NCBI GenBank assembly: GCA_963969365.1
Contig: OZ017748.1
Location: 4,151,001-4,215,000 of the forward strand
DNA length: 64,000 nt
Direction: 5' to 3'
DNA from: Asterochloris sp. CNOR1
Lineage: Eukaryota; Chlorophyta; Trebouxiophyceae; Trebouxiales; Trebouxiaceae
A program made the position numbers and the translations under genes. Below, in pieces: positions 1-64,000 of the stretch. A model generated the notes under the pieces. The model had not been told where the DNA came from. It saw nothing but the letters and a program-made list of their open reading frames with translations, and did no database searches. The first letter of the stretch is position 1. Every line of letters starts with the position of its first letter.

Positions 1-579
1 CGCTGCCTCTGCCTGGACCTGCTTTGTCCTAGGACTCCTTCTTGAGGCTGCGCTCCCCTGGTGGAGCCCAACGAAGTCCACGTCCAGCTTTATGGGCAGG
101 CTGGCTGTCAGAATGCAGCTGCGCGAGGTGCTCTGCAGGGGTAGGCCCTGCCCCTGAGCCTGCAGGAAAAGGATGAGCTTCAAGAAAATGTCAGATGCTC
201 ATGAGGGGAGCCTACTGGCTGACGTAGGGATGGAGCAATGGACACCACGACCGCAAGCACAGAGCAATGGGGCGAGGCAGCCAGCCCCCACTGCTGGTCT
301 AGACACCAGGACTGCACATGCAGAGCAATGGGGCTCGGCAGCCGCACACAACCGCTTTGTGCTCGGACATATGGGGCCCATGCACACCAACACGCTGCAG
401 CCACAGTCCTCATGAGGAACATACTTCTCCTGGGAAACAGCGTCTCTCCCAAGGAGTAAGAGCCAGGGGTCATTGCCTGCTCTCCCTGTTCAAATGTAAT
501 TTTGATGATCTTGCCATGGTTTTCACTCTTCAGGGCCTGGAGTGAGTGGCCCCAACGACACGATTGCAGAGAGGCTGAC

Positions 580-781
580 CTTTGCAATTGCCTCTGAGTC
601 GCTGCTGCGCCGCGGCTGCAGGCGGATGCCATGGCCCCCTGCCAAGGCGCCCTCCCTGGATGAGCCGAGGCTGCCGCTTGAGGTCCTTGAGCCGGCCAAG
701 GATGTCTCAGGCACTGCCAGGATGCTGTGCCTGGTGGGTGCAGGGCCGGCTGGGCTGCTGGCCTGGCCGCTGGTGCTGGTC
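580..781 (-). CDS. Tentative internal exon of an unidentified minus-strand gene
   Basis: On the minus strand a TGCAG acceptor ends at 782 and an AAAG|GTCAGC donor lies at 580/579. The stretch between is open in one frame and encodes a Ser/Gly/Ala/Pro-rich segment of about 67 residues with no recognised domain. The main support is indirect. The sequence just upstream on the minus strand (840-1075) holds several decayed copies of this exon's first 40-50 bases, each behind a GTGCAG, which is the pattern seen next to well-supported exons elsewhere in the window. The gene would extend past the left edge. Low-complexity coding sequence arising by chance is the alternative. Confidence 0.3.
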
Positions 782-839
782 CTGCACACAATGATTGCAG
801 GGCAGGGCTCAGGGCAATGGTGCAGCTGGCCTTGCCGCT

Positions 840-1075
840 GGCGCTCATTTTGCACAGGGTGTAGCACAGGGGTGGGGACTGTAGCACAGGGCTGGCCTGG
901 CAGCTGGTGCCGAGCTGCACAGGCTGCAGGGCTCGAAAGGTTCAAGCCATCACAAGGCTGGCCTAGCAGCTGGTACCAGCCTGCACGGGCTGCAGGATTT
1001 GAGAGCTGCCAGCCATCACAAAGCTGGTCTGGCAGCTGGTGCCAGCCCTGCACAGGCTGCAGGGCTTGAGAGGTG
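840..1075. repeat. Degenerate tandem repeat, possible exon-start echoes
   Basis: Three or four units of about 65 bases share a core that reads on the plus strand GGCTGGCCTGGCAGCTGGTG followed by CAGCCTGCACAGGCTGCAGG with variations. Read on the minus strand each unit begins with GTGCAG and resembles the start of the tentative exon at 580-781. Confidence 0.7.
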
Positions 1076-5113: not shown

Positions 5114-8100
5114 ATGGCTGAGGCCATGGACGTTGATCTGACCGAGGAGGACAAGGGAAAGGCGCCAGCTGCTGCCCCATCAACCAGAAAGCCAGACTTT
5201 GATCTGCCCTGGGTAAGCAGCACTGCTGAACAGCTAAAAGCTGAAAATACCACTACAAGCCAATTGAGCTTTGGCTGAAGCTGTCAGCTATAGACAGTTG
5301 GTGCTGGGCAGAACTGCGTCACAGATCAGGGCTGCTGCTTGCTGCCAAAGCAGGGTGCCAAGCTGCCAAACTTGCTTCCCCAGTCGCCTACCAAAGCATT
5401 CTCATCTTGCTGCCTGTTGGGGTAGAGCAGCACGCCTGCCTCTGAAGGAAACAGCCTTCCTGCCAAAGCAGCGCACACAGCTCTGCTCGCTGCTGCATAC
5501 TGCCTGCAGAGGGAGCAGCACCGACGCCACCTAAGGCAGGCTTGGCGTCTACATCCGTCACTGCCTGACGCAACATGCACATGCCACACCATGACACACA
5601 CAATCTCACCACAGACTGCTTGCAGGTGGAGCAGTGTTGCCCTGCCTGACAAAGCACAAGGCTGCTGCCTGTGTGTGACACGGAGCATTGTGCAACACCA
5701 CCCACCTCTCACGCAGCTCTGGCAACATCTCAGTACCATGCTGCCTGTGCTGCTTGCCAGGTGGAGAGGTGGCGCCCCACCTGCTTATGCTGCCTGGGCC
5801 ACAGTTGCCTGAGCCAATCCCTGTTGGAGTGCAGCTGAGGCTCCCTGACACAATTGACTCCACTTCCTGCTCTTGACTGCCAGGTGGAGAAGTATGGGCC
5901 CCACTTGATGAAGTACAAGGCTGTTTTGTGTAATAGGAAGTTGTGCAACGCGCCCACCATTCAACACATCTTGTCAGTGCAACACTGCCTGTGCTGCCTG
6001 CCAGGCAGAGGTGTGGCCGCTTTACCTGTCTGGGCTGCCCAGGCCAGATGTGCCCATGCCAGCCCTGTCTGCTCTCACCCTCACTCAAAGCCCAGCTGCT
6101 GCCCGCCAGGTGGAAAAGTACCGCCCCCACCTGATCAAGGACATTGTGGGCAATGAGGAGGCAGTGGCGCGCCTGGCGGTCATTGCAGAGGAGGGCAATC
6201 TGCCCAATGTCATTCTGGCGGTGAGATATCCTGCTGGCAGGCTACCCACCCCCCTCTGACCTGCAGCACAGACGGCATCAGGCATCCATATGGGATCTAA
6301 GGCCTCCAGGTTGGTTCTGAATGTCAAGCGTGATCCTGGGTGACAAGGTCTGAGGAGGGCTTAGGCGGCAGCAGAAGCCCCAAGCCAGGGCTGGGAACGT
6401 CATGGCAGGCATGTTGCAGTTCCCGGCTGCAGCACACAGGCCAGGGTCCACTGCTCATCCTGCTGCGGTCGAGACGCCGGGGCCTGCGTGCTGTCCACAC
6501 CACCCTCACAGCAACTTGCTGCCCACGCCTTGCTTCCTGGTTGGTGCCAGCTTCCAGGCACCTTGTGCCGGTGCACAGCTGTTTGCCAGCCTCAGGGCCT
6601 CTGGGCATCGCATGACAGCACCTTGGTGCATGTCGACAGGTGGCCCAGCTTGGTCGCCGGTGATGCACCCACATGGCCTGCAACTGGCACAGGCTGGGGA
6701 TGTCCACGTATGGCCGCAACACAGCAAACTGGCTGCCCCCCCCTCCTAACAACTCCAGCATCAAGCAGCCCACAACTAGCACAGGCCGGGGACGGCCCAG
6801 TCATAGCCGCTACACAGCAAAGTGGCTGGCCCCCCCTCTCGTTGACTCCAGCATCAAGCAGCAGCAATCTAAGCCCCCTGGGTCAAGCTACCCTGCAGGG
6901 GCCCCCTGGGACCGGGAAGACCACCAGCATTCTCTGCCTGGCTCGCCAGCTGCTGGGCCCCTCCTGCAAGGATGCAGTGCTGGAGCTGAATGCCTCGGAT
7001 GACAGGTGCGTCGCAGCTCTGTGGGGGTGGGCGGTGCCACACAGCGCATTCATGCCCACAGCCCCAGCTGCAGCGTGTGCATGTTTGCATAGGCAGATGC
7101 ACCCCTCCTGTGCTCAGCTGTGGCGTGTGCGGCTGCTTTTGGAGCTGAACGCCTCAGATGACAGGTCAGGCAGAGGAATACAGCCCCAGCAGCACCTAGG
7201 GTACTTCCACAGCCATATCTGTCCACAGCATTGATGAGGCACCTCAGTTTGATGGATGTCCTTAAGCCTTCCTGGCGACCATACCTTACATGCAGTGGCT
7301 TTGACGTGGTGTGCGTCGGGACTCACCTGCTTGCTTAGAGAGGTTCACTCATGCTGTGCGCGCACAGGGCGCTGTCAGGTCGGCCACGCCTTGTGTGCAG
7401 GGGCATCGACGTGGTGCGCAACAAGATCAAGATGTTTGCGCAGAAAAAGGTTACGCTCCCGCCAGGGCGCCACAAGATCATCATTCTGGATGAGGCTGAC
7501 AGGTGAGGGCGGGGACCTGCTTTGCGGGGGTCCATTGAGGGCCTCCCACCTTGACGACAGGTAGCGCCAAGCAGAAGGCCCTGCGCTGCGCAGAAATGGA
7601 GGCTTACAACAACAGCAACAGCTTCTTGCAGGCCTGCAGTAGCCCACTGCTGCCCCGGCAGCGTGAATGTCAAGGACACCGCAAAGTAGAGCGCTGCTGA
7701 CTGAGCGCCGGTCACCTGCCTCCTGCACCAAGGCCACTTGGGCCCACAGGCCACAGTCAAGCTAATGGTTGTCATGACAAAGATTCGCCCTCTGCCACCT
7801 GCAGCATGACCAGCAAGCAGACAATGCCCCCCACGCCGATTGGCGCTTTTCAAATGGCTGACCTAGAGCCCGTGCCCGTTCTGCAGCATGGCAAGCTGGG
7901 TACAGCAGGTCCTGCACTGCATCATAGAGATGGAATGCACCGTTGCAAAGTAAGCCCACATGTCCTGCTGCTAGGCCGGTTGCCAGTGCAAGTCACAGGC
8001 GCTGCCAGCCCCTGTAGCCAGCTGGCGAAACTCCATCCCCGTGTGCCTTGCTGCAGCACCACCAGTGGGGCCCACGCAGACCTTGAAATTCAACAGCAAC

Positions 8101-15094: not shown

Positions 15095-15118
15095 GAAAGC
15101 TGTCAGCTCTGTAGAGCT

Positions 15119-15123
15119 TGTAA
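15119..15123 (+). terminator. TGTAA polyadenylation motif after the CDF gene
   Basis: TGTAA lies 25 bases after the stop codon. TGTAA is the established green-algal poly(A) signal; the assignment is by motif and position only. Confidence 0.4.
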
Positions 15124-15390
15124 CAGGTACGTGATGATGTGAGCTGGGGTGTCTGAAGCAATGTCAGATTTGGCATGTCGCCAGCTGTCGTCTTGTGTCG
15201 CCCATTTGAGCAGCACAGGCAAGGCAAGAGTCTGAGATAGACGCTGGCTACAGTACACACTACATGCAGTGTCTTTTCATGACAGCAGCACATGCCCTTC
15301 CATTTTGCAGGCTGTGATGTTGAGCGGTCCACATCGGCGCCACCGTGAAGGTCAGGCACAGCAGGCGCACCTGCCATCAACAGCAGCCTA

Positions 15391-18300: not shown

Positions 18301-21300
18301 ATGCGGTGCGCCTCCAAACCAACAAGCTGTGACCCTCAGTACTCTTTCTTCTTCTAAACCTGCAGCTCTGAAACACAGCTATGCTGCTCTTCCCTTGTTG
18401 CTTTGGGGAACATCTGATAGTGGACCTTCATCATCGTGCAGTGCTGTGCCGCTCTTGCCCCGGCGGAACATGTGTGCCATGCCAGTGCAGACCAAGGCGC
18501 TGGACATGCTCTCTGTCAAGCCCATGCGTTGTACCATGCTATGCTGCTGACATCTCTCCCATCTGCTGCTTCTGCAGCAGGCAGCACTGAGACCGGGCTG
18601 TCCTGCCGTCACTGCTCTGACGTGAGGCGATGCCAGCTTTGCTGCTGTGCTGCTCCTGACTGCCACCAGACTGGGCCACTCAGCGCTGTCCTGTCGCTGC
18701 CTCTGCAGATCGCAGCGCTGGGACAGGGCTCTGCTGCCCCACGGAGCTCCAACAGGTCATGCGGGAAACCTTCAAAACCGCTGACGCCGAGCTCCTCAAG
18801 TGGCTGACAGGTGCGAGCACTGGGCCGGCAGGGCAGCCTCATGTCGGGGCCTCTGCTGACCAACCCTTGGCTCAGGGGCTGCGTCTCTGACCAGGCAGCC
18901 CTTTGGTGGCTGCTGTCAAACAAGAAAGCCTGTGGTCGGGGGCAACTTGTGGTGGCAGTGGCCAGCCAACCTGAAGCAGGCCCCTCCCTTGGAAGCGCCA
19001 CTTTGGTGGCGGGGGGTTGGTGCAGAGCACAGCGGCCACAGATGAGGCCTGTGTGTGTGCTTCCATGGCTTGTGCAATCCACAAATTTGGCTGCGGTGCT
19101 GGCTGGTTCCCTCCTGAAGGAGGAGCAGCAGTGAGGAGGCAAGTGGGCCTCCCCTTCCACACAAGAGCACTGCCAAGTGACCCTGCCAGCCTGCGTGAGA
19201 CAGTGGAGCAGGCAACAGACAGGAGCCACAGCTGCAGGGCTTATGATCATTTCCTGCAGAAGACAACCTGCAGTCGAGGAGTTCATATGCCTCCCTTTGT
19301 ATGCAAGAGCATGGTGGGCTGACCCATATCCTGCTGTGGAGTGCCGCAGGCTGCAGAGCAGATGAGGTGCCCCTGCAGCAGGTGCTAGAACTCAGTCACA
19401 TTTAAAGGTCACTGGCCCTGCTGAGATGGCGCGGCAGATCAGAGGGCGACTGCAGTAGGCACCACCGCCACAGCTGTGGTATCTCACCTGCGAGCCCCGC
19501 GCCTCCACCTATTGAGTGAGAGCTGCTCTGCTCACGCTGCAGAGGTGAACAGCTGGTGCCAATGGCTGCAGTGGTGATGATTGAATCTGCGAGTCATGTG
19601 GCCCCCACTCCTTGCTGAGCGCTGCTCTGCTCACGCTGCAGAGGACAACACAGCAGATCAGGGGGCTGCTGCAGCCGATGCAATGGTCATGGCGGTGATG
19701 AGTTAAGTTTTGCAATCCATGTACGCTTCACTCATTGTCGAGCGCAGCTCTGCCCACCCTGCAGAGGACAGTGGAGCAGATGATGAGGCTGCTGCAGCTG
19801 GTGCGACAGCCACAGTGGTGATGGTGCGCCAGGACAGAGTGGTGGTTGCCAACGTGGGGGACTCGAGGGCGGTGCTGTGCCGCGAGGGGCGGGCGATGGA
19901 CCTTTCCACAGAGCACAGGTGAGGCCAGGGCACACTTCGAGAGCTCTCACAGAGCGGCCTGCATCTGGCTGCTCAGGTTGATGTCGGGGCGGCGCTGTGA
20001 GTAAAGATCCAAGATTGTGCTTGCTGGCGTGGGGCAAGTAGAAGAGGCCGCTACTGTCTGCCCTTGCTGCAGGGGGACTTGCTGCAGGGGGACCTGGCTG
20101 CTGCAGGAACGCTTTGGCTGCGGCATGCTGCATGCAACCCAGCAGCTGGCTTTGGCATTGCAGTGCAGCTTCTTCACAAGCCTCGACGCCCTTGCCGCAG
20201 AGTCTATGACCAGGGCGCCCAACTGTCACGGCATAGATGACACCATCTGCTGAGGAAGTGACTGCATGCCGCATTGCAGGCGTCTCCTGTACAGCTCAAT
20301 GGTGCAGGGTGTACGGCAGGGGCATGTCTGTCAAGGCAGAAATTAAGCAGTGGGAGGGCAGTTATACACTGCCGCCCTGTCCTTGTCTCGAACCTGCATG
20401 CTGCAGCGCGATTCCTGCTGCTGCATGGCGTAGGCAGCACAATGGCGGGGAAGAAAGGAGGCTGGCCAGCAGCTGGCTCTTCACATTGCAATGCAGCCTG
20501 CTCACCAGTTTTTGCAAGATCCATGGCAAGGGCAAGATTGTGCCGCACACAGCAATACCTGCAGCCTATCAGGCTTGAGGCACAATGCAGCTATGAATAA
20601 AGGAAGGGCAGAGAAACCCTAAGCCCTAACCCTGCCCAAAGGGAGGCTTGTGTCCCTGCTAATCTCAGCCTTGCCTTCACGTCTGCTGCAGAGTGTATGG
20701 CAAGGGCAAGTCTGTGGAGGCAGAGAAGAAGAGGATAGAGGACGTGGGTGGCTGGGTGGAGGACGGGCGAGTGTGCGACGTGCTGGCCGTCACGCGCTCG
20801 TTTGGAGACAGAGAGTTCAAGGGGGAGGGCCTCCAAACTCTGCTCAAGAAGGGAGTTGCGTGAGTTCTGGTTTTGAGTGCATTCACTGCTAAGCTGCCGG
20901 GCATGCCATGACCGTGTCACATAGAGCAGGTGGGGCTACCAATGGTAGCCAGGCAGGGTGTCACGCATCTTTGGAGGTTGCCTGCGCCCTTGATCAGAGA
21001 CATAAAGAGTAAAGAGGCCTCCAAACCCTCTGCTCAAGAACAGAGCTTCGCGTGAGTGTCCATCTGCTTCGCTTGTGGTCACTTCACGTGGGGTGTAGGA
21101 TGGCGGCCTTGCACCTGACCAGCAAGCTTCACAAGGGCAGTCTGCAAGGAGCGCTGTCAAGGGTGACTTCCACTGTTGCCTTTGTGACAGCTCCTGCACT
21201 TGCCTGACCTGCAGCAGACCTTGTGTTGTGGCTTGCTGAGGACGCCTCCTTAAGAGGCTCAGGCAGCTTTTGGAGAACACCTCATGCAACAGGCTGAGGC

Positions 21301-23221: not shown

Positions 23222-26200
23222 CTAAATGAGGCTGAGGGCCATGTCAATGTCACTGTATATGTTCTCAATGCCCTCCAGCCCGCAGCTGAACCTAATCAGG
23301 TTGTCCTTGATGCCCAGCTCAGCCCTCTTGGCTGGCCCCTGGTCCCAGTACGAGATGACAGTGGGCTGCTCAATCAGGGTCTCACACCCACCCAGGCTGG
23401 GCGCAATGTACGGGATTTTGACAGCGTCCACAAAGCGGGAGGTTGCCTCAAGGTCCCCATCCACCTGCACAATTGATTGGTGGTTGTGCAAGAGGGGCGG
23501 CAACGTAACATTTGATTTGAGGGACGACAAGCCGGCAGCAGCCAGAGGGACCCTGAGAACCTTTTACTAATGGCAACTGCACTCAGTCTTGTCTCAAGGA
23601 GTGAGAGATGCTGCAAATCAACAGCCCAGAGCATGGAGGAGCCCGCCATGGCTGACATCACACTTGCCAACAGCACCAATTGGGCTGCAGAATGCAGTGA
23701 ATGCAAGCATGCACATTATGGTTAGCAACAGCAGAATGGGCATGCAGCAACACTGTGGCCTGCAGGCAGACAGGGGCAGGGCAACCGGGACAGCCCCCAC
23801 CTCAAAACTGATGACGCCGCCAAAGCCATGCATCTGCTGCACGGCGATGCAGTGGTCGGGATGGCTGGGCAGGCCGGGGTAGTGCACGCGGGCAATGCGG
23901 GGGTGATCCTCCAGGCGCCGCGCAATCTCAAAGGCCTGTAGAGCCAGCATGAGGATGCACTGAGGATCATCCTCTTGAGCTGTGCATCAGCAGATTGCAA
24001 ACAGCAGAGTGATCCTCCAGGCGCCGCGCGATCACAGAAGGTCTGCAGGGACAGCATGGGGGTGCACTGAGGACGCCTGCTCGCCCGGGTCTCTCACCGT
24101 GGTGTGCTACTCTTCACCTGCGCCTCCACTGGGTTTGCATGCCCGGCACGTCAGGCAGACTGCACCTGGCTCAGCCCAGATTGGAAACTTTCATACGACG
24201 CAATGTCAGCGTCTTCATGCACAGTATGTGAGGCGGACTGGACCTGTCTCAGCATCAGATATTGACTTCTGACTGAACAGCGCATGCGAGGCACACTGCA
24301 CCTGTCTCAGCCCAGAGCTTTGTGCCCAGAGGTTGATACAGTCAGCCCCTGCTCACCGTCGCGTTCTGCTCCTTGACCCGCACCCCGAGGGTCTTCATGC
24401 CACGCAGCAGCATGTAGGCGCAGTGGGGGTCGATGGTGCCCCCCAGCACATTGTGCATGGCGCGCACCGCGTTGCACAGCTCCGACTTGCCGGCCAGGGC
24501 GCCTGCAGCCACCAGCGTAAGTGTTCAGTCCCAGAAGGGCCCGGGACAGGGTTGTCATGAGCAGCAGTGCACAGCTCACCGCATTGGGCAGCAACAGCGC
24601 CTGCAGGCTGTGTAAGCTTGCTGACCCCGAAATTGGCAAATTGCGCCCCAATGTAAGGCACTCATTCCAAGAGCAGAACTGGCTGCATCAGCCTGCACCT
24701 GAGTTTCCACCTCAGCTATGAGGTCAATAGGGTCCATTGAGGCCACTCGGGGCTGAAAGGGCACCAGTTGGCCCCAGAGCCTCAGCCCACAAAGAGTATG
24801 AGATGCCCAAGGACTGCTCCTCTGACCTGCCAGCAGGTCGTTGTGGCCCCCCAGGTACTTGGTGGCCGAGTGCAGCACCAGGTCGGCCCCAAAGTCGATG
24901 GCGCGCATGTTGATGGGCGTTGCAAAGGTGCCGTCGATGCAGACCACGGCGCCGCGGGCGTGGCACAGCTCGCTGATGCGCTGGATATCCACACACCTGC
25001 ATAAGGGGCCAGGCAGGCGGAGGTCAACACCGCTGCTGTGGCCAGCAGAGCTGACAGCATGGGCGCACGCCAGCTGGCTCTGTCTCGGCGACAGGCAGCC
25101 TCCTTGCACAGGTGTCCCCTGTTGCCGCACGGCGATGGGCGCATGCAAGCTGCACAGTGACTAGTGGCTGCTGAGACCTTGCAACGCAACTTTGCAGGTG
25201 CATGGCCTCATAGCCTGCTGCTCTCAGCAGACCCCCCTTTGGCTGCCACTGGAGTCATTGCCCAGCTCTCAGACGTGGAGTGACACCTTTGGCCTTTCCT
25301 GTGGAGTTCCTTCAAACACGCCAGTCATGTCACGACTGCCCAGCACTGCAGCTGTGTCTGCAGCCTACACGGGGGAGCCCCACTCAGGCAGGACTCCCTG
25401 AGGCCGGACAGCAGCCCAGGCGCTCCTGAACAAGCAACAGCTTGCCTGAGGTAGGGGTTGGTGGGCGACTCCGAGAAGTAGAGGGACACCACGTGCTCAT
25501 CCAGTGCCCTCTCCAGCGCCTTCAGGTCGCTGGGATCCACCACTGTGGCGGTGATGCCCATCTTGGGCAGCACCGTCTGTATGAACTGCCTGCAGGCCGA
25601 GGCAATGGTGTGGCTCAATGAGATAGGCCTGCTTATATTCTCAGGGCACACTGGCATCTGAATGTCACCGGTGCTCACCACTCTGACTGGAACACCCACC
25701 TTGATCAAGGCAGAGCGCTAGGGTGGGAACCAAAAACCAGAAATAGCGAACCACAGGAGGCAGAACACAAGATCTGCCGCCGCACCAGTGATGCTGCCTG
25801 CACCTGTGCAATGCACAGACCTGCAGGCCCTACAGTCAGGACCGGTCCTTGTCCAGAAGCACAGCCTGCACAGTCTGTTGGCAGAAATTGCTCTGTGGCT
25901 GACCTGGTGCGCCGGTAGCAGTCGGTCGTGGTCACAATGTGGCCCCCCGCGGGCACCAGCGCGAGCATCATGGTCGTGGCGGAGTTCATGCCCGAGCTGG
26001 AGACGAGGCAGTCCTCCGCCCCCTCGAGCTCACGAATCTTCTCCTCCACGACACGGGTAGTAGGGTTGCCGTACCTGCGGAGATGGGCCAATGAATGTTT
26101 GGTCAGACAAGGTCAGGTCAGGTCAGGACTTGCTCAGGAGGTGAGGGGGCAGTGGGGAAGCTGATACAAGAAGGTACCTGCAGACATGTGCAGGTGACCA

Positions 26201-27746: not shown

Positions 27747-30700
27747 TCACTTTCGTCGACTGCTTCTGCCTGGGGGGGAGGCACCCCGCTTGTTGCCTAC
27801 AGATGGGGATGCTGCCCCAAAGGAGCTGCCGCCAAACATGCCGCTGCCCTGCGGCGTGCCAAAGGCACTGGGCCCCGCACTGGACTGCCCAAACAATGAA
27901 GCTCCACTCTGCGGCTGGGTAGCGCTGAAGGTGCTTGCCCCTGAGCTGGCTGGGCCTCCAAACAAGGATAGCTGTGCTGGGCCTGCTGGCTGCGAGCTAG
28001 CGCCACCATTGCTGCTGCTGGTGCCTGGCTGCGCTGCTGAGGAGCCAGCGTTGCGTTGCTCGCGTCGCTGCTGCCGCTCAGCATGAATCTGCGCCATGCG
28101 CTCGGCATCGGCGAAGGGATTGCTGCCGTCCCCCACCTGCGGTGGCTCATTTTGATGTTCAAACAGGACAAAAAACGTAAAGCAGCTGCCTGCATCGTAA
28201 GCTGTTGCAGGCGCTCGGCGCCGACAAAGGGGTCGCTGCCATGCCCCATCTGTAGCAACAGAATGTAACGGCACACCTGCGGGACAGCATTGAACAAGCA
28301 GCTGCCTGGACCTGCTGCTGAGCCCTGCAGGGTGCCTTGAGTGGCATTTCTCATTTTGTTTTGGCATCGGCATCATGACCAGCTGCCGAGCCCTTTCGCA
28401 GCACGTTAACCACTTGATGCGGAGTGAGGCGGACCTTCTCACGCATATCATGCAGCTGTTGAGCTGCTGTCCTGCCATCTGCGGCATCGCCGCAATAGCT
28501 GTTAGCCAGCAGACTCCAGAGGGAGAGCAGGATACAGACGCAAAGAGATCTGCAGTAATTGGCTGTGTGTGTTCATAAACCTGGGCGAAAGCACGCTCGC
28601 TACTCGCAAGTGTCCCTTGGCAGATGCATCCAGTCTGACAGCTGGAAAGTGCGCATGGGTCCCCTCAAAGTGGCCACAGTGCAAGACCGTAGGGGCTCAC
28701 CCGCCGACGCTCCAGCAGCATCTGATTCTTGGCCCCCTGCAGAGCCTGCGCGAGCGCATCCACCTTGGCTGCCACCAGCATGAAGCACCTGCAGGCAGGC
28801 CTTGCCTCAGCATGGACAGCACACAGGGCACACAGCAGGCCTGCTGAGACTTGTGGGCACCTGCAGAGGAAGTCTTTGGCTGGGGTGCTCAGAACTCCAA
28901 ACGACATGCCGGAACTGTTGACGGCCTGCAGCACCACTTTGCGGTGGGGCATGCAGCACCTCAGCCGCCGGGCATGAAGCGTCTGCAGACTCCAGACGGA
29001 TAGTGCTGCATCATTCAGCCCTTCCTTCTGCACGCAGCCTGTAAGGCTGCAGGCAGCAAGTTTACCTCGGCAGCCACCAGCATGAAGCTCCTGCAGACAA
29101 TGCCAAGCTTCATCTCCAGAGCCTGGAAGAGCCACCAACTCTTTAGATACCCGCCTGCCTGCTTGTGCAAGTACACTAGCACCACCAGAGCCTCTGCTGC
29201 CCACATCTGGCTGCCCCAAAGCCTTGGCAGGGAGGCCTCGGCCCTCCAGCTCTGGCCCCACCCTTTGAATCACAGCATGCATCCCTGGCCAGAGCTGCTA
29301 TCGCACCAGCTAGGGCCACCTCCAAACCGCGCAGGGCGGCAGTCTGCCACAGCCCACCTGTGGACATGCATCAGCAGCAGGGGCAGCTGCTCAAGGTCCT
29401 GCGAGTTGCCCGCCTCGGCTGCAGCGTCGATGGGCACGCACTCCTCCAGGGCATCAGCCGTCCCCTTGATCCTGATGCTGTCCTCCTGTAGGAGGGCGAC
29501 AAGGCACACATGTGACTCACTGCATGGGGAAGCTGAGATTGCCCAGCAGCCACAAAGTGGTCCCCTTGATCCTGATGCTGTCCTCCTGCAGGAGGGCAAC
29601 AAGGCACACATGTGAGTCACTGCATAGGGAGGATGTGTTTGCCCAGCAGCCACAAAGTGTTGACTTTGTTGAACGTCATTGCTGGTCCCCAAGAGCAATC
29701 TCAGGCTGTGCTCCTGCGGGTAAAAGCTATGCTGGTGGAAAGCTTGAAAACATGGCTGCACCACGGTAGGCACGCACTCAGGCACTCCTCCGACATCGGT
29801 TGAGTGAGGCCCTAGTGCTTGTGCAAGGAGCCCAGGTACAGGGTCATGCCAACCATTCCCAACTTGGCAGCAGAGTGCAGACATTACATCCGAGACCAAG
29901 CGCGAGGCAGGGCACCTATGCTGTCATGCTGCGTGTGCAAAGCCTCTCAGCAAAGAACACATGCAAAAGAGACTCCCATGGAGCAAGGTGTAGAGCCTGA
30001 CGCGAGTCTGATGCACTTGTGTGTGCAGGTTGCAGCTTCATCACATGCTCACCACATAGCCATGTATTTGGCAGCATTGAGCATCATCAGAAAGGGCAGC
30101 ATCAGCTCACCACGTAGCCATGTATTTGGCGCCGCAGGACTTCTGAGGGCAGGGTGATGATCCCTGACATCGCACAGTCCCGCACAGCTGGGTCGATGCC
30201 CGTTGCTGTCAAGCGTGCCTGCAGGGAGCACACCAGTGACCATGATCTGCAGCCAGAAGCGTTTGGCCATGGTGGGGCCAGCTACCAGAGTCTGCTGTGG
30301 TAATGCCTGCTCTCGAAGTCTGTCTTTGTCAACTCAGCTTGCATGAGGCTGGACCCTCGAGCAGGCCAGCCAACATGACCAGACCAACGGTGGGCGGCAG
30401 GCAAGCTCATGCCCCTGACGTCCAGACAGACACTTCAGGCACCAGCAAGGAGACCTCAAGGTCTGGCTGTACATGGACTGTCAGTCAATCTGATAAGTGC
30501 AGCGCACACCAGACCCACATGCCACCCAGGTCCAGGCATGGCAAGGTAGTGGCAGGCCTGCAGACTAAGTCAGCTTGCCTGAACGCCGACACCCTGTCAA
30601 GGACCCAGCACCAGCCAGGTATGCATAAGTACACAGATACGGCTGCGCACCGACTCAAGCTGCCTGAACGCCAGCACCTTCCGGAAGGACTGGTGCGCCT

Positions 30701-33700
30701 GATCTGCAGCGTGCTGCAGCCCCACCACGTCCTGCAGCACCACCGGAAAGTTGGTTCCAGAGCTTGACATGCCTGATGAGCGGGACCTGGGGAGCGCAAG
30801 CTGGTCAGCACATGCGTACCCGCCGAGGCAGCCTGCCCTGACAATGCCCATTCATAGCCTTTGTCTTGAGGGGCGTGAGAGACCGTCCTGCCTCCCTGTC
30901 AAAAATCTACTCAACCTACCTCGCGGATGCTTCCTGTGGCATCAGCCTCTGCCTGCACCTTGCCCCCCAGCGCCTGCAGCTGCCCTTGCAGCCTGCCATG
31001 CAGCGGGCCAAGACCCTGCAGACACCAGGGGTGAAGTCAGACTTGGGAAGCTTTGATTTAATGTGTGGATACTGTTCAGAACCCCCCCATTGTGCAGGTC
31101 CACTCAGCAGGTCCTGCCAGGGTGCCACTGCAGCCCGTCAGGCCAGACCGTCGGCGCCCCGAGTCCAGGTCCAGAGGCCTCCGTCTTTCTTGCCGGCCGG
31201 CACTCCACAGGGCCTGCTGAGCTGCCACCCCATCCAGTCTGCCCAAGCTTTGCAGGTGCACCTGACGGGTCCTGACAGGGTGCCACTGCAGCCTGTCAGA
31301 CCAAACATGCTGGCCAGCAAGGCTCTGTCTTCTTGCTGGCCGGCCCAACATTTGCCAGCCGCCTTTGCCGCTGGAGACACACTTCCGTGTGGCACTTGTG
31401 ACCACGCTGGTCTTGCAGGCCAATTTCGGACTGCTGCTGACCTGCCACAGGGTGCCACAGTGCCTATGCTGGACAAGCTGGTCATAATGCTCATGGTGCA
31501 GGGTGCACGCTCAGCCCATGCCCATGCTGCAAACCATTTGGCGAACCCCCTCCTGGCCCCCCCACACGCATCAGCACCCTGAGATTCACACCAGACATTC
31601 CCCACTGGGCACTGTGTGCAGTGTACACCTAGCGAGGCTGAGCCCTGTCCTGCAGACCCTGGGGACACACTTCCCTCTGGCAGTTGTGACTGCGCCTGCT
31701 GTGCAGGCCAGCTCCATGCCTCTGCCGAGCTGCCACTGGGTGCCGCTGGGTGCTGCTGGGTGAACCCTAAGCCCTAGACCACTGTCTGCAGGGCCCACCT
31801 GCCGAAGCTGGGCCCTGTCTTGCAGGCGCTCGCAGCTCTTCAGCTCCTCCCACTGTGCCCGCTGCTTCAGCACCAGCTGCTGCCTGCAGGGGAGAATGCA
31901 GTACTGAGTAACATGAGCAGAGGGCTCCCCTTGTTCAGCTGGGTGCACTGAAAGCTCGACTTCGGCACTGGCTGCAGCCTGCGCCTGGAGTGAGGTTTGC
32001 AGTCATGGCATGCATCTGAGACAGGCAGAAGTGTTGAGCGGTGCTTGAGCGCCTGCAGAGCCAGTGGCGTTGCTGACTGTGCGACTGCAGTGCAGATGTG
32101 TGGATGGAAGCACATGGCCGTTAGGCACATTCTGAGAGGTACGTATGCATCCGTCTGCTTCCTGGAGAAGTGGCAGCACTGCACTCCGATGACACGGCTG
32201 CCCCCGTGGGGGTGCTGGAGCACCAGCTGCAGCCTGCAGGACATTCTGCAGCACCGTGTCTGCCTGGAGCAGGACCAGGTGAGCAGACGATTGCCGCTGT
32301 CCAGCTTGGCACCCTGAGAGCACCATCTGCAGCAGCAGCAGCACTTCCCAGGCTGACATGAGCTTCAGCAGCAGCTTTGCGCTCGAAAGATGTAGCAGCG
32401 GCCTGGTGCAGCGCCATGCAGGTGAGGCCCTGGTTTAGTTTGCAGCACAGCCAGCACTGCTGCTGCTGTGCACACATCGCGATGCCAGCTTTGCAGGTGG
32501 CGCACACAGCAAAATGGGGAGTCGGAGATGAAGGGTGACGTCAGTACCTGCTGCCCATCTGGCCGAGCAGGTCCAAGACTGTGGGGACACGCAAGTGGCA
32601 GCACAGCACTCACAATGGCACTGCGCCTTGCCTGTGGCTGCCAGAAAGAGAGTCGGCCAGCCCAGAGACTTCCAGCCTGCCGATTTTAGGACAAGCAGGC
32701 ACAGCACAAGTCGAGACGGCAATGGATGTCACGTCATCGTGCACCAGTGGGCTCACTCGATCTTCTTGAGCACGCTTTGTGCATCCGGGCTCAGGTCGTC
32801 CCACGATGTGGCGCTAGTGATGGGCTGCCCCGCCTTGGTGGTCAAGGAGGGCCCCTGCTGCTGCTGCTGCTGCTGGGGCTGCTGCTGCTGCCCAAAGGGC
32901 ACCAGCTGCCCCTGTGCCGGCTGTGCTCCAAAGGTGGACTGGTCACCAAAGGGAGACGGGGCAGCACTGCTGCTGGGCGCCCCCCAGTTGAAGCCTGCCC
33001 CTGTGGACTGTGGGGCGCTGCCTGCAGCGGGAGATGCTGAGGTGGGTGGGCATGTTGAGTCTGGCTGCTCTGGGCGAGCCTTGCGCCCAAGGTATCCTGC
33101 TTGCAAAGAAGGCGCCGCTGCAGGGCGTATCTGGTTGGAGGTGCCCTCTCCTGCCTGCATCAGGGGAACAGAGAGGCAAGCAGCAAGGCATGCCTGACAC
33201 CGTCTCCCAGCCAAGTGGAATGTGACGTGCCGACGCTGAATGGACTGCTGCTGCCTTTGCGCAGGCAACCCCATGACGCACAGCACAGCATGTCTGACTG
33301 CGGCCAGCGCAGCTCTTGGTAGGCTTGAATGTTGCTCAGTCTGCACAGACAGCCTACTGACGCTGGAGGCGCTAGCCATCATGTAAACGTTGGCAATGCG
33401 TGTGGGCAGAGCTGGGCATGACTCCGACTTTCTGCAGCACACAGTGCCAGGCAGTGCTGGACTTTCTGCACAGGTAGCCTCACCAAAGCTGAAGGTGCTG
33501 CTGCTTGCTGGGACACCGAAGGCAGTGCTGGAGGCACCTCCAAAGTTGAAGGTGCTGCTGCTTGCCGGGGCACCGAAGGCAGTGCTGGAGGCCCCCCCAA
33601 AGCTGAAGGCGCCGACGCTTGCTCCAAAAGTGGGGGCAGCGCTTCCGCCAAAGCTGAACCCTCCAGAACTTGCTCCAAACGCCGGAGTGCTGCTGCCAAA

Positions 33701-35899: not shown

Positions 35900-38800
35900 T
35901 CAGAGCATGAAGATGAGGTCGTTGTTCTTCACTCCAGTGCCCACGTACAGTCCGCCCCAGGAGCCAGCAGCACCATTGTAGTAGAAGGTGTATCCTGGCC
36001 AGATGAGGTTGCGCAGGGTGGTTGTCCCCAGGAAGCCATCATGCTGCAGCGACCACTCCCCCCTCACGTCTGTTGCCAGTGACTTCTGATCGTCCTGCAT
36101 GGCAGGCATACCTTGCGGTTCAGCAAGCTATAGCAGCAATATAATAGATGTGGGTGCAGGAAAGATGTGGAGTGCTACAGCCTGAGTGCACTCAGCTGCA
36201 AGCTGCCCTCAGCTGCCAAAGGGAGGCGCTTGGACGTCAAAGCTTTGCTGGACTCCACCCTCAATGATGCACCCTGAACTTGCAAGGCTGGCGCCAGCGC
36301 AGCAACATGAACAGGCAGCTGCATCCCACGCAGGCGGTAGTGGACAGGCCCACCCCTGTCTGGCCTACACATAGCGCTGCTGTGGCTGCATGAAGAAAAG
36401 TGCCGCAGAGACTGAGCCTGTGTCACAGATGGGAGACCCAAGCAGCTGTGCTGTAGGGTGGGCTGGAGGCCCCAGCCCAGTGTCAGCAACATGCTCAGGC
36501 AAGGGCAGCTATAGGGCGGGTGCCATGAGCCCGTCCCGCAGGTGGCAGTCGTGTAGACGGCTGCATGGTGGGCATCAAGCGTGACATATAGACCCGCCTG
36601 CTGCATGTGCTGGGGACATGCTGCTCATGGGAGCTGCACTGGCTTTGCGCTGGTGGCTACAGCGTGAGAGCCCGCCTCAGGACAGGCGCTTTGGCAGCGG
36701 TTTGCCAGTCCGCCACCAGAGACATCTTTGGCAATATTTTTCAAACCACAAACTACCCACTTCAAGTGCACAGAACTCTCCAGCTCGTGCCCAGCCTGGC
36801 CGTGCTGTGTGAGCAGTGTCTGACTCACCTTGCAGTGCACAAAGCTCTCCAGCTTGTCGGGGTAGGACACTTGTGAGAAGGCTGCATTGGACACCAACTC
36901 CCCGCTGCTGCCCATGACAAAGCTGTCCTTGGGCACGACATTTGTGGCGGCTGCAATGCTGTCAATGATGCACCTCAAACGCTGCAGCTCTGTCACCTCG
37001 CTGCCGGGCGCAGGTGGGGCGTCCTGCAGCAGGCAGACTGCCATCCTGTCAGTCATCAGGTCACAGCAGGAAGGGGTGGTTGTGGGGGGAGGAGGCACGT
37101 CAGGCGCTGCAGCTATGTCCCCTCGCTGCCCGGATGCAGTAGGGGTATCCGGAGAGGCGGACTGCAACCAAGTCGGTTGTCAGGCAATAGTAAGCTGTGC
37201 TTGAAATGCACCTCAGGCGCTGCAGCCGTGCCACCTTGCCGCTGAGCGCAGGAGGGACACCCTGCAGTAAGTGCAGTGCCATTGGTCAGAATGCCAGGTT
37301 GAAAGACACTGGAATCGATGTGGCATATCCTCAATGCAGCTGCTGCCAGTGACAGGCATGGCGTCCTGCAACACGTGCACTGACAGGCAGTCAGCGACCT
37401 GGGTGACAGATGAGTGCGAATGTGTGCCTGTTGTACAGCTCAGGCAGCCTTGTGCTGAGCAGCCAGGCTGCCGCTGTGCAGGCACGACTGAGGCGGGCCT
37501 GGACCTGCGGCAGGGCAGCTGCCCATGCCTGGAGCCTGCAGACGCCCCTAACCCTGGCCCTGACCTTCTCTCCCCATGGAATGAGTTCAAGCCCCACAAG
37601 CTTGTGGACACTGTCTGGGCTGAGCTACAGCAGGATGCCACAGCAGGATGCATACACAATGCAACTTCTAGAATGGGCATGAGTTGCACTCCGTCAGGTA
37701 GCAGTGTTTCTGCTGCAACCTGCCCAGCAATCCTGACCCCTGCCTGCTTCCCCAGCCCTTCCTGGCACCTACCAGTCCCAGTGCCCCTGGCCACGCTCAG
37801 GGTAAGTTTTGAGAGCTCTCTGTGTCAGCTTGATGTTGACTGTGGCAGCCTTGTTGACCACAGCCTCAGGCAGGCCCCGCTGCCGCAGATGCATGCCCGC
37901 CTCTCACACATCATCACACATTGCATTTCGCGCCCATTTCCCAAGCCCAGCACCCACCGCATCTGCCACAGGCAGTGGCGCCCCTGGCTGTGCCACAGGG
38001 TATGTCTTTGAGGGCTCCCCGCTCAGCTGGGTGTTGATGGTGGCAGCCTTCTCCACCACAGCCTCTGGCAGGGCCTCCAGGTCTATCCACTTGATGCCGT
38101 CCTGGCTGTAGCAGAACCTGGCGCCATCACCTGAGCGCCCCTGAGCCACCAAGTAGTCCTGCGAGACACAGAGAGCAGCTGTGAAGGAGGTGCATGAACG
38201 TCTGTCAGCTCCCCAGGTTGCAGGTGGTCCTGCATACGGAGCAGTGCACAGCACCTGGCGATGGCTGTGCCTGGCCCCGCTGCCTGTGCACCCCTGAGCC
38301 ACCATGCAGTCCTGCACAAGCAAAGCGAGGCTGCTGCATGGACAATTGGCAGTCGAGAAAACACTGGTCTGTCTGCTCCAACCTCCAAGGTACATCCGCA
38401 CTGGGGAGACGGAGCAGCTGTGGAGGGGCTGGCTTTGCATGTATGCCTGCAACTGTATTTTTGTGGCGCAAGGTAGGCCTGAACAGGGCACAGTGCAGCC
38501 TGCTGGCTGTAGCAAACTTTGGCAGCATCGTCTGTGTGACGCTGACACGCCCGATGTGTTGCAGGACACACAGACAGCACACAGATAGGGAGGAGTGCCA
38601 GGCAGTTGTAGTGAGGCGAGCCACTGAGGAGCCTGGCGTGTGCTGCGCTGTGTGCATGACATCTGCACAGCCTGAGGCTGCCAGGCAGTGCTGCAGGGCA
38701 GTGGTGCATCTGTGGCAATGCCTGTTTGGCCTGCAGCTGCGCCCATCAGGCGGCCCTGCAGGGCCCAGAGCACAGCAGTTGTTGGTGTGACAGTCTCGCG

Positions 38801-40908: not shown

Positions 40909-42322
40909 ATGCCAGGAATGATATCCAGTGTCGCTCTGCAATCCAACTCAAGCTCATCAGGTAGCAGCAGCCGCTGCCTGACGATGTCGTCCAGATCCTC
41001 TATCAATACACTTTCGCCCAAGTATGGTTCGCGGTCCATTGCAAGGGCTGCACTTGTGAGGGCAATGATGCCAGGCCCATCACATCTTTCCATGGCTTGT
41101 TCCTGTAAATAGGTCACGACAAGAACTCGTTGGCTAAGGGTCTGCAGTGGCAGTGCTGCCCATATTTTGGAGGATGATGTCATTGCTTGCCTGCAGCACA
41201 AGTTCACAGCATCAGCAGCTGCTACTCAACAGAGCGCAAGCTGGAGGTAGGAGATGTCGAGCTGTTGCAGGCTTGAAGCAGCTTTAAGGAGGCAGAGGAT
41301 TTGGAACAGGAGCAGGGCACAGCTGCAGCAGCCAACAGGTGTTGTGAGGGCCTCTGCAGATGTGCAGCAGTCTGCTCAGCGCCTCATGGTAATGTATGCA
41401 GTGTGGCAACAACATGCGAGGCTGGCTATACAGAGCATGTTCTGACAGGGGGCTGCAGGCTGGGGCTGCAGGCTGGTGCTGTGGCTTGCTGTAAAAGCTG
41501 CTTGCTGCCATGGGTGCCTCCTCTGGGGTTGTCACGCCAGCATCTGTCACAAGTCAGGTTCGCATGCGGCAAAGCTGTGACTTGCGTGGTGCAAAGCTGC
41601 ATTGAGAAAGAGATCCTTACCTTGTCCTCTGCTTCAAGGTACTTCAGCTATCTGCTCAGGGGCTCGGAAAGAAGCGGATTGTCGAGCGTGCCGATGTACT
41701 TCGCCAGCGTGGTGGTGTCAATGGTTGCCTGAGCCTCATCAGCCACCCATGTGTCTCCAGGCTGAAGCCCACTCCTCACAAGAAGCTGGTAGAACCTGAT
41801 CAGTAGTCCCTCGGTTTCCCGTCCTTCCACCAGGGCCTGTGTGGACGCAGGGCAGATTGTGCTGACTGCACAGGCCATGCTCGACATGGCTCACCAGGCC
41901 TGCAATAATGCCATGGAACTAAGGCAGACTGTACTGACTCACACAGGTCATGCTTACCTGGGTGGCAGGTCTGATGAAAGATAGTTCATCAGCTGCCTGT
42001 TTTTCCTCCTGCTGCTGATGATGTATTCTGAGAACATGTCACAGAAGTCTACAAGAGACTTTGCCAGAAGCTGCAATGCGTAGCGCTCCCCAAACTTGTG
42101 CCTGATCTCATCTCGCAGCTGTCTTGCGATGACGCTGCCATAAGCACGGTCCAGTGCCATTATTTGCTGCCACTGTCTGCTGAGGCCCTCCTCCAACTTG
42201 TGCTGCCCGGCTTCCAGCCTGGCCTGCCCGGCTTCCAGCTTGTGCTGCCCGTCTGTCATCCTGGCTTCCAAATTGTCCAGCTTTGCGATGATGTCTCGCA
42301 AGAGGGCATCTGAGGAGCTCAT
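40909..42322 (-). CDS. Coiled-coil protein of unknown function, 3' end unresolved
   Basis: Exon 1 (41958-42322) encodes 121 residues. It starts MSSSDALLRDIIAKLDNLEA, continues with a short internal repeat (LEAGQ / LEAGQ / LEEG) typical of a coiled coil, then a folded-looking part with FGERYALQLLAKSLVDFCDM and a basic SSRRKNRQ. A second open stretch at about 41650-41860 (EGLLIRFYQLLVRSGLQPGD) and a third exon at 40909-41102 (ALTSAALAMDREPY, LPDELELDC) are probably parts of the same gene, but the exon 2 borders are not settled. No family was recognised. Its start is 418 bp from that of SPT16 on the opposite strand. Confidence 0.45.
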
Positions 42323-42740: not shown

Positions 42741-57033
<14,293 letters not shown>

Positions 57034-57839: not shown

Positions 57840-58558
57840 AAGAGTGTTAGAGGTGACATGGTCCAGTATAGGTCATATTATCACAGGCCATGTGACACCC
57901 TGCAACCGGTCATCATATCACAGGCCATGTGACACCCTGCAACTGTCACCGTTACAGTCGACATGCCAGACTGGTATCAGGAGCATGTCTCAATAGCACA
58001 GAGTGTGTACACTGTATAACAGTACAGCGTTACTTGTCAGCTGTAGCTGGTCTGAGAACAGGCTGGCCTGATCTGCTGTATGGCCCTTGTTGACAGAGGT
58101 GGTGTATGGTGGAGTGCCCTGTGGCAAACAAGTGTGCATGTCCCTGCCAGCTCCTTCATGCACTGCTACAGCAGCAGCCTTAGCCAGTCAGTGCACGGCA
58201 AGGGAGGAGCAGTACTGCTGTTTCAACTTAGGCCCACCACAACACCATTGCTCCGTAGGATGGTCATTGCTGTCAATGGTTCATCCAGCTGCTACTGTTG
58301 TCAAGTAGACAGCACGAGGCTTTACCTCCCTTTGTGCCATGTAGCTAGGCTGCTACCCTGATTGGACCAGAGGGACAATGTGCAGCCTGCAAAGAACATA
58401 TGCAAGCACGTGTCCTGATCCAGTGCAACTTATTGTGTAAATGTCAATATGAAGACATGAATGTGACCATGATGGCACCTCAAAGTACTTCAATTATATG
58501 TGGCGCCAGAATCAGATGAGAGTTCATTCACTGTCACCTAGGCTACTGCCAGCCCTGC
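57840..58558. other. Intergenic region with a short direct repeat
   Basis: No gene was recognised in about 720 bases. It includes a direct repeat (57871-57945) in which ATCACAGGCCATGTGACACC, CTGCAAC occurs twice, 36 bases apart. Confidence 0.5.
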
Positions 58559-61500: not shown

Positions 61501-62707
61501 CCACTCACACCCCACACTGCAAACTCATCCACAGGGTGCAAGACAGAGCAGAACAAGAAGCATGCTTGAACACCTGTGCGTGGCTTCTTGCTGGGGCCTG
61601 CTTTGCCATCTTCCACGCTGCCAGCTTCATGGCTCCATTTGCCTGCACAGAGAAAAGAATCCTGTAATTCAGACAGCATGCCCACATGATTTCTTGCCAT
61701 AAGTCATTGTGCGGCAAAGGCAGTTGATGTGTCATGCTGCCTGCCTCAGCCTTTGAACGTGTGACAGTCGCAGGCAACCCTACAGTCTCAACGCACAGCT
61801 TCATTCAAACTTCTGTGCGCCTGCATCAAGCAGCCTGTGCAACCACTCACCACATCACGTCTCAGAGCGAAATACGCTTGCATGACACCAAAAAGATGCA
61901 GTCAAAAATCAGACGCTGCCTGCACTGACATGCACCAGGGCAACCAAACTTCACCAGCACCAGCATACACAATGTGCACCTACTCAACACACCTGTCTTT
62001 GGCTGTCTCAGTGCATCCACAGGCTTGCTACCTTCAACTACCACATGCAGCTGGCAGGAGGAGGCTGCTCACATCAGGGCAGCCATATGTTGTCAGCAAC
62101 AACAGAGCCGTGCCATCAGCGCCAGTTTCCCACCACACCAATGAGCCACTTTAGCCACCACCAGCACACAGCCATGTGGGGCACCCATGCACTGGCCTCT
62201 GAAATCTGCAGCCCACTTGCCCAGACCCATCACAGGTTGATCGTGGCCAGGCCCAGCCATGACCTTTTACTGTGGGCCCGCCATCAAAAAGTATGCATGG
62301 CTTGTCCAACTGACACAGCGTGGGCGGTGTGTTTGTAGGATGCAGGTGGATTTCGCTGGAGCATGATCTCACCTGAGGGCTCAGGCCATTGTTAGCCCGT
62401 GCACACCCAAGCCCATGTGTCATCCAGGTAGTGCCCAGCACATGATTGCCATGACTGATCAGGACAAGCAGCTCAACCACAGCTACCACGCAGGGAACCG
62501 GCTACACACCTCGGCGCTCAGACAGAAAGGCCCTGCTCCAGCCAGTGCAGGAGCATTGCGAAATCTCAGAACCAGGTTCTGCAGACGTTGACGAGCATCA
62601 GCGCTTGCGCCATAGAGCACGCCAAGTGCGGCGTCCCTGGATTCATCCTCCAGCCCAGAAAGAGCATCTGCGGCCAGTCCTGTATCGTCCGCCATATTCC
62701 AGAGCAA
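58559..62707 (-). CDS. Nuclease-like plus protein-kinase-like protein, possibly broken
   Basis: Proposed exons: 62510-62707, [gap], 61574-61642, 61236-61345, 61087-61126, 60659-60918, 60404-60524, 60102-60256, 59643-59934, 59159-59441, 58559-58942. From 61642 on, phases match except inside 60102-60256. Features: KKPRTGDIPLTGKPP; RPLWFFVNGRYQGLAWR; a helical part; then SLRPDG and, in another frame, LQLLFKWEVKS, which look like the PD and E-x-K parts of a PD-(D/E)XK nuclease fold; YYGDLPYLMAATAAEQKLQF; and a C-terminal kinase-like domain with GYVHRDLRWADVA (HRD-like), YFLLDLELCG (DLE in place of DFG) and EAPDVRALGKML. No obvious glycine loop was seen. No family name is certain. Nuclease-plus-kinase layouts occur in Crinkler-like eukaryotic effector families, but that is an analogy only. 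Confidence 0.5.
62200..62420 (-). repeat. Decayed copy of the kinase-like gene's exon 61236-61345
   Basis: Plus-strand GATCTCACCTGAGGGCTCAG, GCCATTGTTAGCCCGTGCAC at 62366 parallels GATGTCACCTGCAGGCTCCT, GGGGCCATTGTGAGCCTGTA at 61339. GGGCCCGCCATCAAAAAG at 62273 parallels the antisense of the FFVNGRYQG codons near 61260. The copy is about 1 kb upstream in the sense of the gene. Confidence 0.6.
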
Positions 62708-64000
62708 TTTACCCTGAGGGCAGGTGCAGCTGTGCGCTCAGAGCTCATCAAGAAGCCACATGAAATAGCAGACACTTGTTGTCAAGATGCTCACCGGCTT
62801 ACTGAGAGTAAAGTGACGGAGAAATGGGCTGCTGAGCCTTACAGTCACCAGCAGTTAGGTTCGTCTCAGAATTGCCTCCCCGACCTAGTTACCACAAAAG
62901 TCTCACATTCAATTCCAGGACGCACTTCATCAGCAGCACTCCACAGGCCATTTCAAGCAAGATCCAGGACGCACTCACATGCACCACAACCTCAAGCATC
63001 ATCTGGGCAAGACACACTGCCAACATCGTCATCATGGCTACCGTTGACCCACACGACACACCCGATTGCCAGCAGAAGGCCTACACATATGCAGGTGCCC
63101 CTGACGCAGATGGAAATCACCTTCTGCTCCCCTACACACAACCTCAGTATACACTGCAAGCAAGGGGAGCTGCTGCTCAACATGCTCTGCACCATAATCA
63201 GGCCTGTCCCTGGCAAGCAACTGCCTCACTTTGCAGCAAGGGGGCCGCGCCAGTACACACAACTGCTTCAAAACTGCAGAAAGGGGCAGCGCATGGCCCT
63301 TCACTCCACAGTCCGCCAGCGCAAGCTCTGCACGAGGAGGGGTTTGAAGCAGTCAGGATCTCACATGTAGGCCTGTGTACATTTGCTAAGCCCTCTCTGT
63401 AGAGATCTCCCGCGGTGATGATGATTTAAATTTAAAGTCCGTAGCCTCAATGCACGGGCATAGGACTATGATCATTTCATCCTACCAATGAACTTTGCTG
63501 AAGGTGTAGGGGTACAAAAAGAAGCAGTACAGGCATATCAAGCAGGTCACTGTACTTGGCTGGTAAAGAGGGAGCCGGCGCTCATAGCAGGCCTTGGCAC
63601 TGTGCTGGGCTTCATCACCACGTTGGACTGCTAGCTGAGGTTGCTGCCCGAAATGCAAACACCCTGGATCCTGTATGGCGCAGGGGGGGGCCCAGCCCCC
63701 CTGATTGGCTTGCCACGCCCTCTCAGCTCGTAGTCTTCGCAGTCATGAGAGAGTTGTGCGCGGTAAGCTGCAAGCCCTAGCTAGGTCGCCACAGCTGTGG
63801 GCTTACTAAAGGAAACCTATAGGAAGCAGTGTGACGCCCCGCAGGCACTTATAGAGCCACGAAGACGCAACTGCGAGGTTTGGGACCTCCAGTACAGGCT
63901 GAGAAAGGTGCTGTTCAAGGCATTACCAGCTGGCACAGCTGCACACAAAATCGACTTGGTTCGCGTAGCTCTGGAGTTGTTTCTGACACCCACAAGAGGG
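62708..64000. other. Right-end region without a recognised gene
   Basis: Nothing in this 1.3 kb could be assigned. A long plus-strand open frame (62588-63370) runs through it but has no family features. A short AT-rich palindrome-like phrase (ATTTAAATTTAAA) is at 63424-63436, and GGGGGGGCCCAGCCCCCC near 63684 could form a hairpin. Upstream exons of the minus-strand kinase-like gene could lie here. Confidence 0.45.

Follow-up and report, generated by a model that had tools for sequence, protein, structure and literature searches.

The window analysed here, a stretch of 64,000 nucleotides (nt) of the green alga Asterochloris sp. CNOR1 (contig OZ017748.1, C3:4151001-4215000; the genome assembly comprises 56.4 Mb on 21 contigs), carries intron-rich genes that include RFC, CDF, PP2C, CGS, NUP58-like, RSP9-like and SPT16 genes. 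Introns of most of these genes contain what we call echoes, that is, copies of the edge of the adjoining exon together with its splice site, and the source of the echoes is local direct tandem duplication. Seven gene models of the window were searched against Pfam, and five gave good matches (RFC, cation efflux, PP2C, Cys/Met-metabolism enzyme and SPT16); the match of the RSP9-like model was weak and below the cut-off, one other of the seven had no match, and the NUP58 model stood outside this set. The CGS model aligns to the solved plant cystathionine gamma-synthase 1i41 over residues 4-41 and 79-418 of 420, and the second half of SPT16 aligns to the solved SPT16 9eh2 over 69-504 of 517. Protein homology backs the exon copies in SPT16, CGS, RFC and PP2C. 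No RNA genes were found in the window at Rfam gathering scores, and a tRNA search was likewise empty.

The window was analysed together with two independent sets of samples, namely 200 kb of contig C1 (1.0-1.2 Mb; L002-L021; hereafter the C1 sample) and nine 10-kb stretches (90 kb) of contigs C1, C3, C8 and C12, giving 354 kb in total. Genes were modelled by a hidden Markov gene finder trained on the window and the C1 sample and seeded from conserved window peptides. The resulting models have a median exon of 102 nt, a median intron of 215.5 nt (584 introns) and about 8-10 introns per gene. In the same two data sets the donor consensus is (A/C)AG followed by GTGAG, and the acceptor consensus, CTGCAG followed by G, is unusually sharp, with T at 0.90, G at 0.94 and C at 0.95 ahead of the AG. 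The hexamer CTGCAG is a palindrome and the recognition site of PstI.

Each intron was compared with the edges of its flanking exons (first or last 60 nt, restricted to coding bases), and a Smith-Waterman score of at least 28 was taken as a match; exons shorter than 30 nt, introns with an inner part below 50 nt and gene models below 210 coding nt were excluded. Such a self-alignment with controls had been proposed in the initial annotation, and on the 354 kb it gave matches in 68 of 1168 intron/flanking-exon-edge pairs (19/169 in the window, 28/716 in the C1 sample and 21/283 in the extra 90 kb). Non-flanking exons of the same gene matched in 5 of 2520 pairs in all (0/1058 for random picks and 5/1462 where every such exon of the extra 90 kb was used), exons of other genes in 2 of 1066, and reverse-complemented flanks in 2 of 1168. 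The excess is thus about 30-fold, specific to the flank and to the same strand (Fisher test, flank versus non-flank: p=7e-29), as expected from the earlier description of copies lying on the strand of the gene next to the parent exon. This confirms that intron copies of adjoining exon edges are a real pattern. The strong consensus shared by acceptors might suggest that all junctions simply look alike and match by chance, but only coding exon bases entered the comparison, and the near absence of matches to non-flanking exons, together with the few matches at control offsets described below, contradicts this explanation and leaves it a negligible probability.

Direct repeats in this genome are predominantly local. 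A repeat search of the window found 23 direct families, and 18 of the 20 listed have local spacing only (30-302 nt); families D5 and D7 have weak distant members besides local ones. Inverted pairs in the window number five, three of which are one CAG/CTG run. An exact diagonal scan (T>=18, offsets 20-1019) yielded 64 matches in the window and 49 in the C1 sample, of which 63 and 49, respectively, have offsets under 500 nt, and the same scan gave no matches in four control offset ranges, in which one offset in five was sampled. At T>=16 over the 354 kb there were 206 local matches versus 11 in two control sets combined (780 offsets each), and the window and C1 sample held eight inverted matches within 800 nt. 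Low-complexity segments (3-mer entropy ratio <0.75) are omitted from the repeat counts other than those of the repeat search and the T>=18 scan. A dispersed element is rejected on the few copies at distant offsets in the samples, and the one array checked for dispersal genome-wide gave a single match. A rough BLAST self-comparison of the C1 sample showed 10 direct matches at least 3.2 kb apart (score>=24), perhaps from a repeated gene or element. Repeat loci at exon edges are present on C1, C3, C8 and C12. Mis-joined reads could in principle place alleles or collapsed repeats in tandem, but the identity of matched segments ranges from about 0.67 to 1.00, each locus has its own unit, and four of the 21 contigs show the pattern, so that an assembly or haplotype artefact is very improbable. 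The same range of identity bears out the earlier view that the copies are of mixed age.

The copies have the structure of tandem duplications. Head-to-tail pairs or arrays occur at several loci, including the 100-nt pair of the NUP58-like gene, the 69-nt array of SPT16, and the 49-nt and 37-nt intron-internal pairs (Table 1). The units are mostly 25-400 nt long, with a median of about 100 nt, as is the median offset of local direct duplicates, and 19 of 121 loci are near-exact tandems, in which the match spans at least 0.92 of the offset. Where copies are now separated, the spacer should match the outer flank if the units once abutted: this match was significant (p<=0.05) in 36 of the 69 non-array rows (score>=20) and not in the other 33, in a test with overlapping rows in which short spacers have no chance of a significant result. 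The exonic part of the matched junction segments is spread over 1-99 nt (25 acceptor and 18 donor cases), and copying anchored at the splice site, by reverse splicing or retrocopy, is rejected, as copy ends have no fixed position at the junction. Of the 19 near-exact loci, 12 are two-copy tandems whose unit ends could be read; the seven set aside are multi-copy arrays and a pair with an identity of 0.67. Terminal homology beyond the units reached at least 3 nt in 7 of these 12 (21% in simulation) and at least 7 nt in 4 of 12 (3.6% in simulation), although cases are few and partial third copies could inflate the figures. This end homology suggests microhomology-assisted slippage or template switching. 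In three duplications (C1 sample, joined coordinates 112562 and 129777; L029:5722) the terminal homologies contain the splice-like words TGCAG, ACTGCAGG and CCAGGT.

Table 1. Echoes and related tandem duplications in the window, and candidate intron births in the samples (window positions unless stated otherwise)
Gene or feature	Position	Strand	Description
RFC gene	5866..6143	+	Acceptor-side echo 5866-5917 of exon start 6092-6143, offset 226; spacer matches outer flank, p 0.005
RFC gene	6981..7166	+	Donor-side echo 7140-7166 of exon end 6981-7007, offset 159; exon in Pfam AAA match
PP2C gene	18565..18738	+	Acceptor-side echo 18565-18607 of 18696-18738, offset 131; exon in Pfam PP2C match
PP2C gene	19606..19823	+	Acceptor-side echo 19606-19700 of 19729-19823, offset 123; extra copy 19517-19551; exon in Pfam PP2C match
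CGS gene	23903..24036	-	Acceptor-side echo 24009-24036 of exon 23903-23930, offset 106; exon residues aligned to 1i41
NUP58-like gene	28095..28252	-	Acceptor-side echo 28208-28252 of 28095-28139, offset 113
NUP58-like gene	29460..29659	-	Exact 100-nt tandem pair, identity 92%, across acceptor at 29486
NUP58-like gene	31610..31825	-	Donor-side echo 31610-31655 of 31780-31825, offset 170
FG-repeat exon	33483..33653	-	57-nt (19-codon) in-frame tandem repeat, third copy 65%; exon-internal product of the same process
RSP9-like gene	36967..37267	-	Copies 36967-37029, 37092-37133 and 37206-37267; offsets 125, 113 and 238; part of one copy called as 27-nt exon
RSP9-like gene	37825..38315	-	37825-37877 vs 38023-38075 (offset 198); 38101-38162 vs 38254-38315 (offset 153)
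SPT16	44682..45013	+	Exon end and GT donor in three copies: 44682, 44869, 44985
SPT16	45194..45416	+	Acceptor-side echo 45194-45255 of 45355-45416, offset 161; exon in Pfam Peptidase_M24 match
Intron-internal array	46316..46467	+	31-nt tandem array; no exon involved; ascribed to the same process
Intron-internal pair	48779..48876	+	49-nt tandem pair; extra homology at ends 3 nt
SPT16	53204..53557	+	Five 69-nt units in tandem (~90%), each with last exon bases and GTGAG donor
SPT16	54184..54313	+	Acceptor-side echo 54184-54238 of 54259-54313, offset 75, 93%; exon residues aligned to 9eh2
SPT16	55448..55669	+	Echo 55448-55467 of exon 55650-55669, offset 202; exon aligned to 9eh2
SPT16	56338..56595	+	Donor-side echo 56559-56595 of 56338-56374, offset 221
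Intron-internal pair	57871..57943	-	37-nt tandem pair, 94%
Candidate intron birth, C1 sample	reverse-complement 2789-2955 (0-based)	-	166-nt intron
Candidate intron birth, C1 sample	reverse-complement 33167-33333 (0-based)	-	166-nt intron
Candidate intron birth	L024:630-714		

The initial annotation had listed echoes in seven genes. They were recovered in the RFC, PP2C (there called PPH1), CGS, NUP58-like, RSP9-like and SPT16 genes; in CDF, no intron of the predicted model reaches a score of 24, and its surroundings yielded a single repeat, namely an 80-nt tandem pair (14900-15035) that lies beyond the model and perhaps in an unpredicted 3' part of the gene. Among seven samples the window is the densest, with 1.07 repeat loci per intron-kb (0.44-0.88 in the others). 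Its distance from the contig end is 160-224 kb; another subterminal sample, at the end of C1, is not raised (0.61 loci per intron-kb). In the neighbouring sample L022 all four repeat loci lie outside predicted genes. Besides the 57-nt repeat of the FG-repeat exon (Table 1), an in-frame 21-nt coding tandem repeat at 42192-42265, in a different exon, is an exon-internal counterpart of the process. In the C1 sample (joined 14799-15500, L003:4799-5500), a gene that we take from its motif to be ribonucleotide reductase R2-like has one exon end in three copies (14997, 15149 and 15456), with an echo called as an exon.

The fate of the echoes was followed in 50 exon-echo pairs from the window and the C1 sample, taken best score first and skipped if the exon copy started within 60 nt of one already taken. 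Identity between echo and exon at codon positions 1, 2 and 3 is 368/432, 377/435 and 347/434, respectively. The difference between positions 1+2 and position 3 is small (p=0.007) and fits synonymous changes in the exon itself. The offsets modulo 3 (0/1/2) are distributed 16/14/20, with no frame preference. Echoes thus decay without protein constraint. The AG is kept by 19 of 22 copied acceptors and the GT by 13 of 22 copied donors; under the splice model, scores above zero are retained by 23 of the 25 acceptors in echoes and by 12 of the 18 donors, with mean scores of 5.6 in echo acceptors versus 7.0 in real ones and 1.1 in echo donors versus 5.6. At the level of sequence, therefore, the decoy splice sites that the initial annotation had described are real. 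One may ask whether echoes are functional, as alternative (mutually exclusive or poison) exons or as regulatory decoys under selection. The acceptors would allow it, 22 of 25 scoring within 3 nats of the real site, and in some copies the reading frame stays open (SPT16 45212-45255). Most donors, however, are degraded, with 6 of 18 that close to the real site, and intron-internal duplications occur at about the frequency given by uniform placement (38 vs 42.9). Near-equal divergence at the three codon positions and offsets that do not favour multiples of 3 reject mutually exclusive or alternative exons as a general rule, and we consider a function under selection highly unlikely.

Frequent short tandem duplications and selection probably account for most of the pattern. 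The duplications would arise often at the DNA level, the probable route being microhomology-assisted slippage or template switching in replication or repair, and would be placed nearly uniformly along genes. A unit lying inside an intron, or across a junction where the copy beside the remaining exon is still spliced, would lengthen the intron by one unit, with the inner splice site used silently and the change neutral in the population. Free to decay, the outer copy would then become an echo that includes an AG or GT and some exon bases, and units wholly within an exon or out of frame would mostly be purged by selection. As the exon copy stays put, an exon-echo pair should diverge about half as fast as an intron-intron pair, which would make echoes conspicuous.

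The location of the duplicates was compared with this expectation. With units of about 100 nt, exons of 100 nt and introns of 200-300 nt, roughly half of the loci that either straddle a junction or lie inside an intron should straddle one. Under uniform placement of units with the observed lengths the expected share is 0.50, and the observed share is 0.66 (47 straddling and 24 intron-internal among 80 loci, score>=20; p=0.006), so the geometric fit is rough. The share is 0.62 versus 0.45 expected among younger loci (18 and 11 of 34; p=0.09) and 0.69 versus 0.53 among older ones (p=0.04). By reasoning rather than simulation, one-sided decay would keep exon-intron pairs visible about twice as long and raise the share to about 0.66. 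Exon-exon pairs are depleted (2 vs 7.7 expected). Loci with both copies at a junction make up 20 of the 121 and were pooled with the junction class in the placement test; this class seems to stem partly from echoes called as exons.

Several observations weigh against near-uniform placement with selection. The junction excess is as large in the young set as in the old, although persistence alone predicts little in young pairs. A segment-rotation null is exceeded by pairs of a junction and an intron-internal copy (40 vs 18.8 overall; 14 vs 4.6 at identity of at least 0.90). Intergenic loci number 6 versus 18.2 under uniform placement (p=0.02 against intron-internal loci), a deficit that is not significant in the younger set (3 vs 5.7); we assume that it reflects constraint on promoters and untranslated regions (UTRs). 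Finally, the exons were all predicted by a single home-made gene finder run without RNA data, and it took some echoes for exons, as in the presumed ribonucleotide reductase gene of the C1 sample.

The first two of these points would be explained if junctions duplicated more than other DNA, either because CTGCAG or CAGGT words provide microhomology or because transcription or splicing opens the site. TGCAG- or CAGGT-like words in three of the four long terminal homologies (>=7 nt) point the same way. However, the young-set excess stands at p=0.09, the overall size of the excess is explicable by slower decay, the copied exon lengths range over 1-99 nt, and breakpoints are readable at 12 loci only. 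Junction-targeted duplication is therefore unlikely, and the special status that the initial annotation had given to the exon-intron junction is not supported, as uniform placement together with slower decay of pairs with one exonic copy should yield about the observed share; a mild junction preference may exist. It is equally doubtful that splice junctions are duplication hot spots in this lineage, with the strong CTGCAG acceptor and CAGGT donor words serving slippage as microhomology; introns would then grow, and on rare occasions be born, through the splicing code itself, by copying their own borders.

Tandem duplication with near-uniform placement bears directly on intron length. As had been proposed from the window alone, repeated local tandem duplication, with many units across splice junctions, lengthens introns. 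Counting one unit per recognisable locus, 13,525 of 195,365 intron bp trace back to this process, about 7% of the present intron length. Repeat-bearing introns are longer than others (medians 389 vs 226 nt in the window and 269.5 vs 202 nt in the C1 sample), although long introns also offer more room. Because echoes fade, the total contribution over time is probably larger than 7%. Meanwhile, a signature of intron birth, in which the surroundings of donor and acceptor are alike in register (score >=12), was found in 3 of 679 introns (0.1 expected; Table 1). With only these three carrying the mark, intron birth is rejected as the main explanation.

The source of intron length in compact, repeat-poor genomes is unsettled, and here a simple, countable process supplies about 7% of it. 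Each event leaves a reference copy in the exon, so that echoes could be used as a clock for insertion into introns. They also bring real and decoy splice sites of nearly the same sequence together in natural arrays, in which the choice made by the spliceosome could be studied, and gene predictors and annotation are prone to error at such loci.

Tandem duplication in the genome is recognised as one way in which introns are gained (PMC3443670), and the model of Rogers (1989) is cited to this effect in PMC4974935. Our loci resemble that model in having short tandem duplications within genes whose copies bear splice sites. In the model, an AGGT-bearing exon segment is copied to yield a new intron, whereas here mostly existing introns are lengthened. 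In the potato RdRp gene, a duplication runs across an intron-exon boundary and another, of 83 bp, is intron-internal (PMC4974935). Its unit takes in the 3' end of the intron, the CAG, the polypyrimidine tract and the start of the exon, as ours do; in potato, however, one gene is concerned and the copy gives a new exon and intron, whereas here dozens of loci are affected and the copy decays within the intron.

In Chlamydomonas and Volvox, tandem-repeat density is reported to be highest in introns and raised near intron-exon junctions, and algal 5'-UTRs have the lowest genic repeat density (PMC3887541), which fits the intergenic deficit seen here. That work, in the passages available, concerns repeat densities and a regulatory reading, and these passages do not tie the units to the adjoining exon. 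Introner elements, as summarised in PMC9860276, are families copied into many genes, with green algae among the lineages concerned. They share with the echoes that they are a means of intron change in green algae; unlike introners, the copies described here are local and different at each locus, with few distant-offset matches in the samples. Genome-wide echoes of exon edges in introns were found in none of the literature matches listed, which comprised titles and the starts of abstracts, with subscription journals mostly outside. The statement of the initial annotation that no such system has been described nevertheless goes too far, since both junction-crossing duplication (potato RdRp, PMC4974935) and repeat enrichment at algal junctions (PMC3887541) are published. 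What looks new in Asterochloris sp. CNOR1 is the scale and the outcome of a known process.

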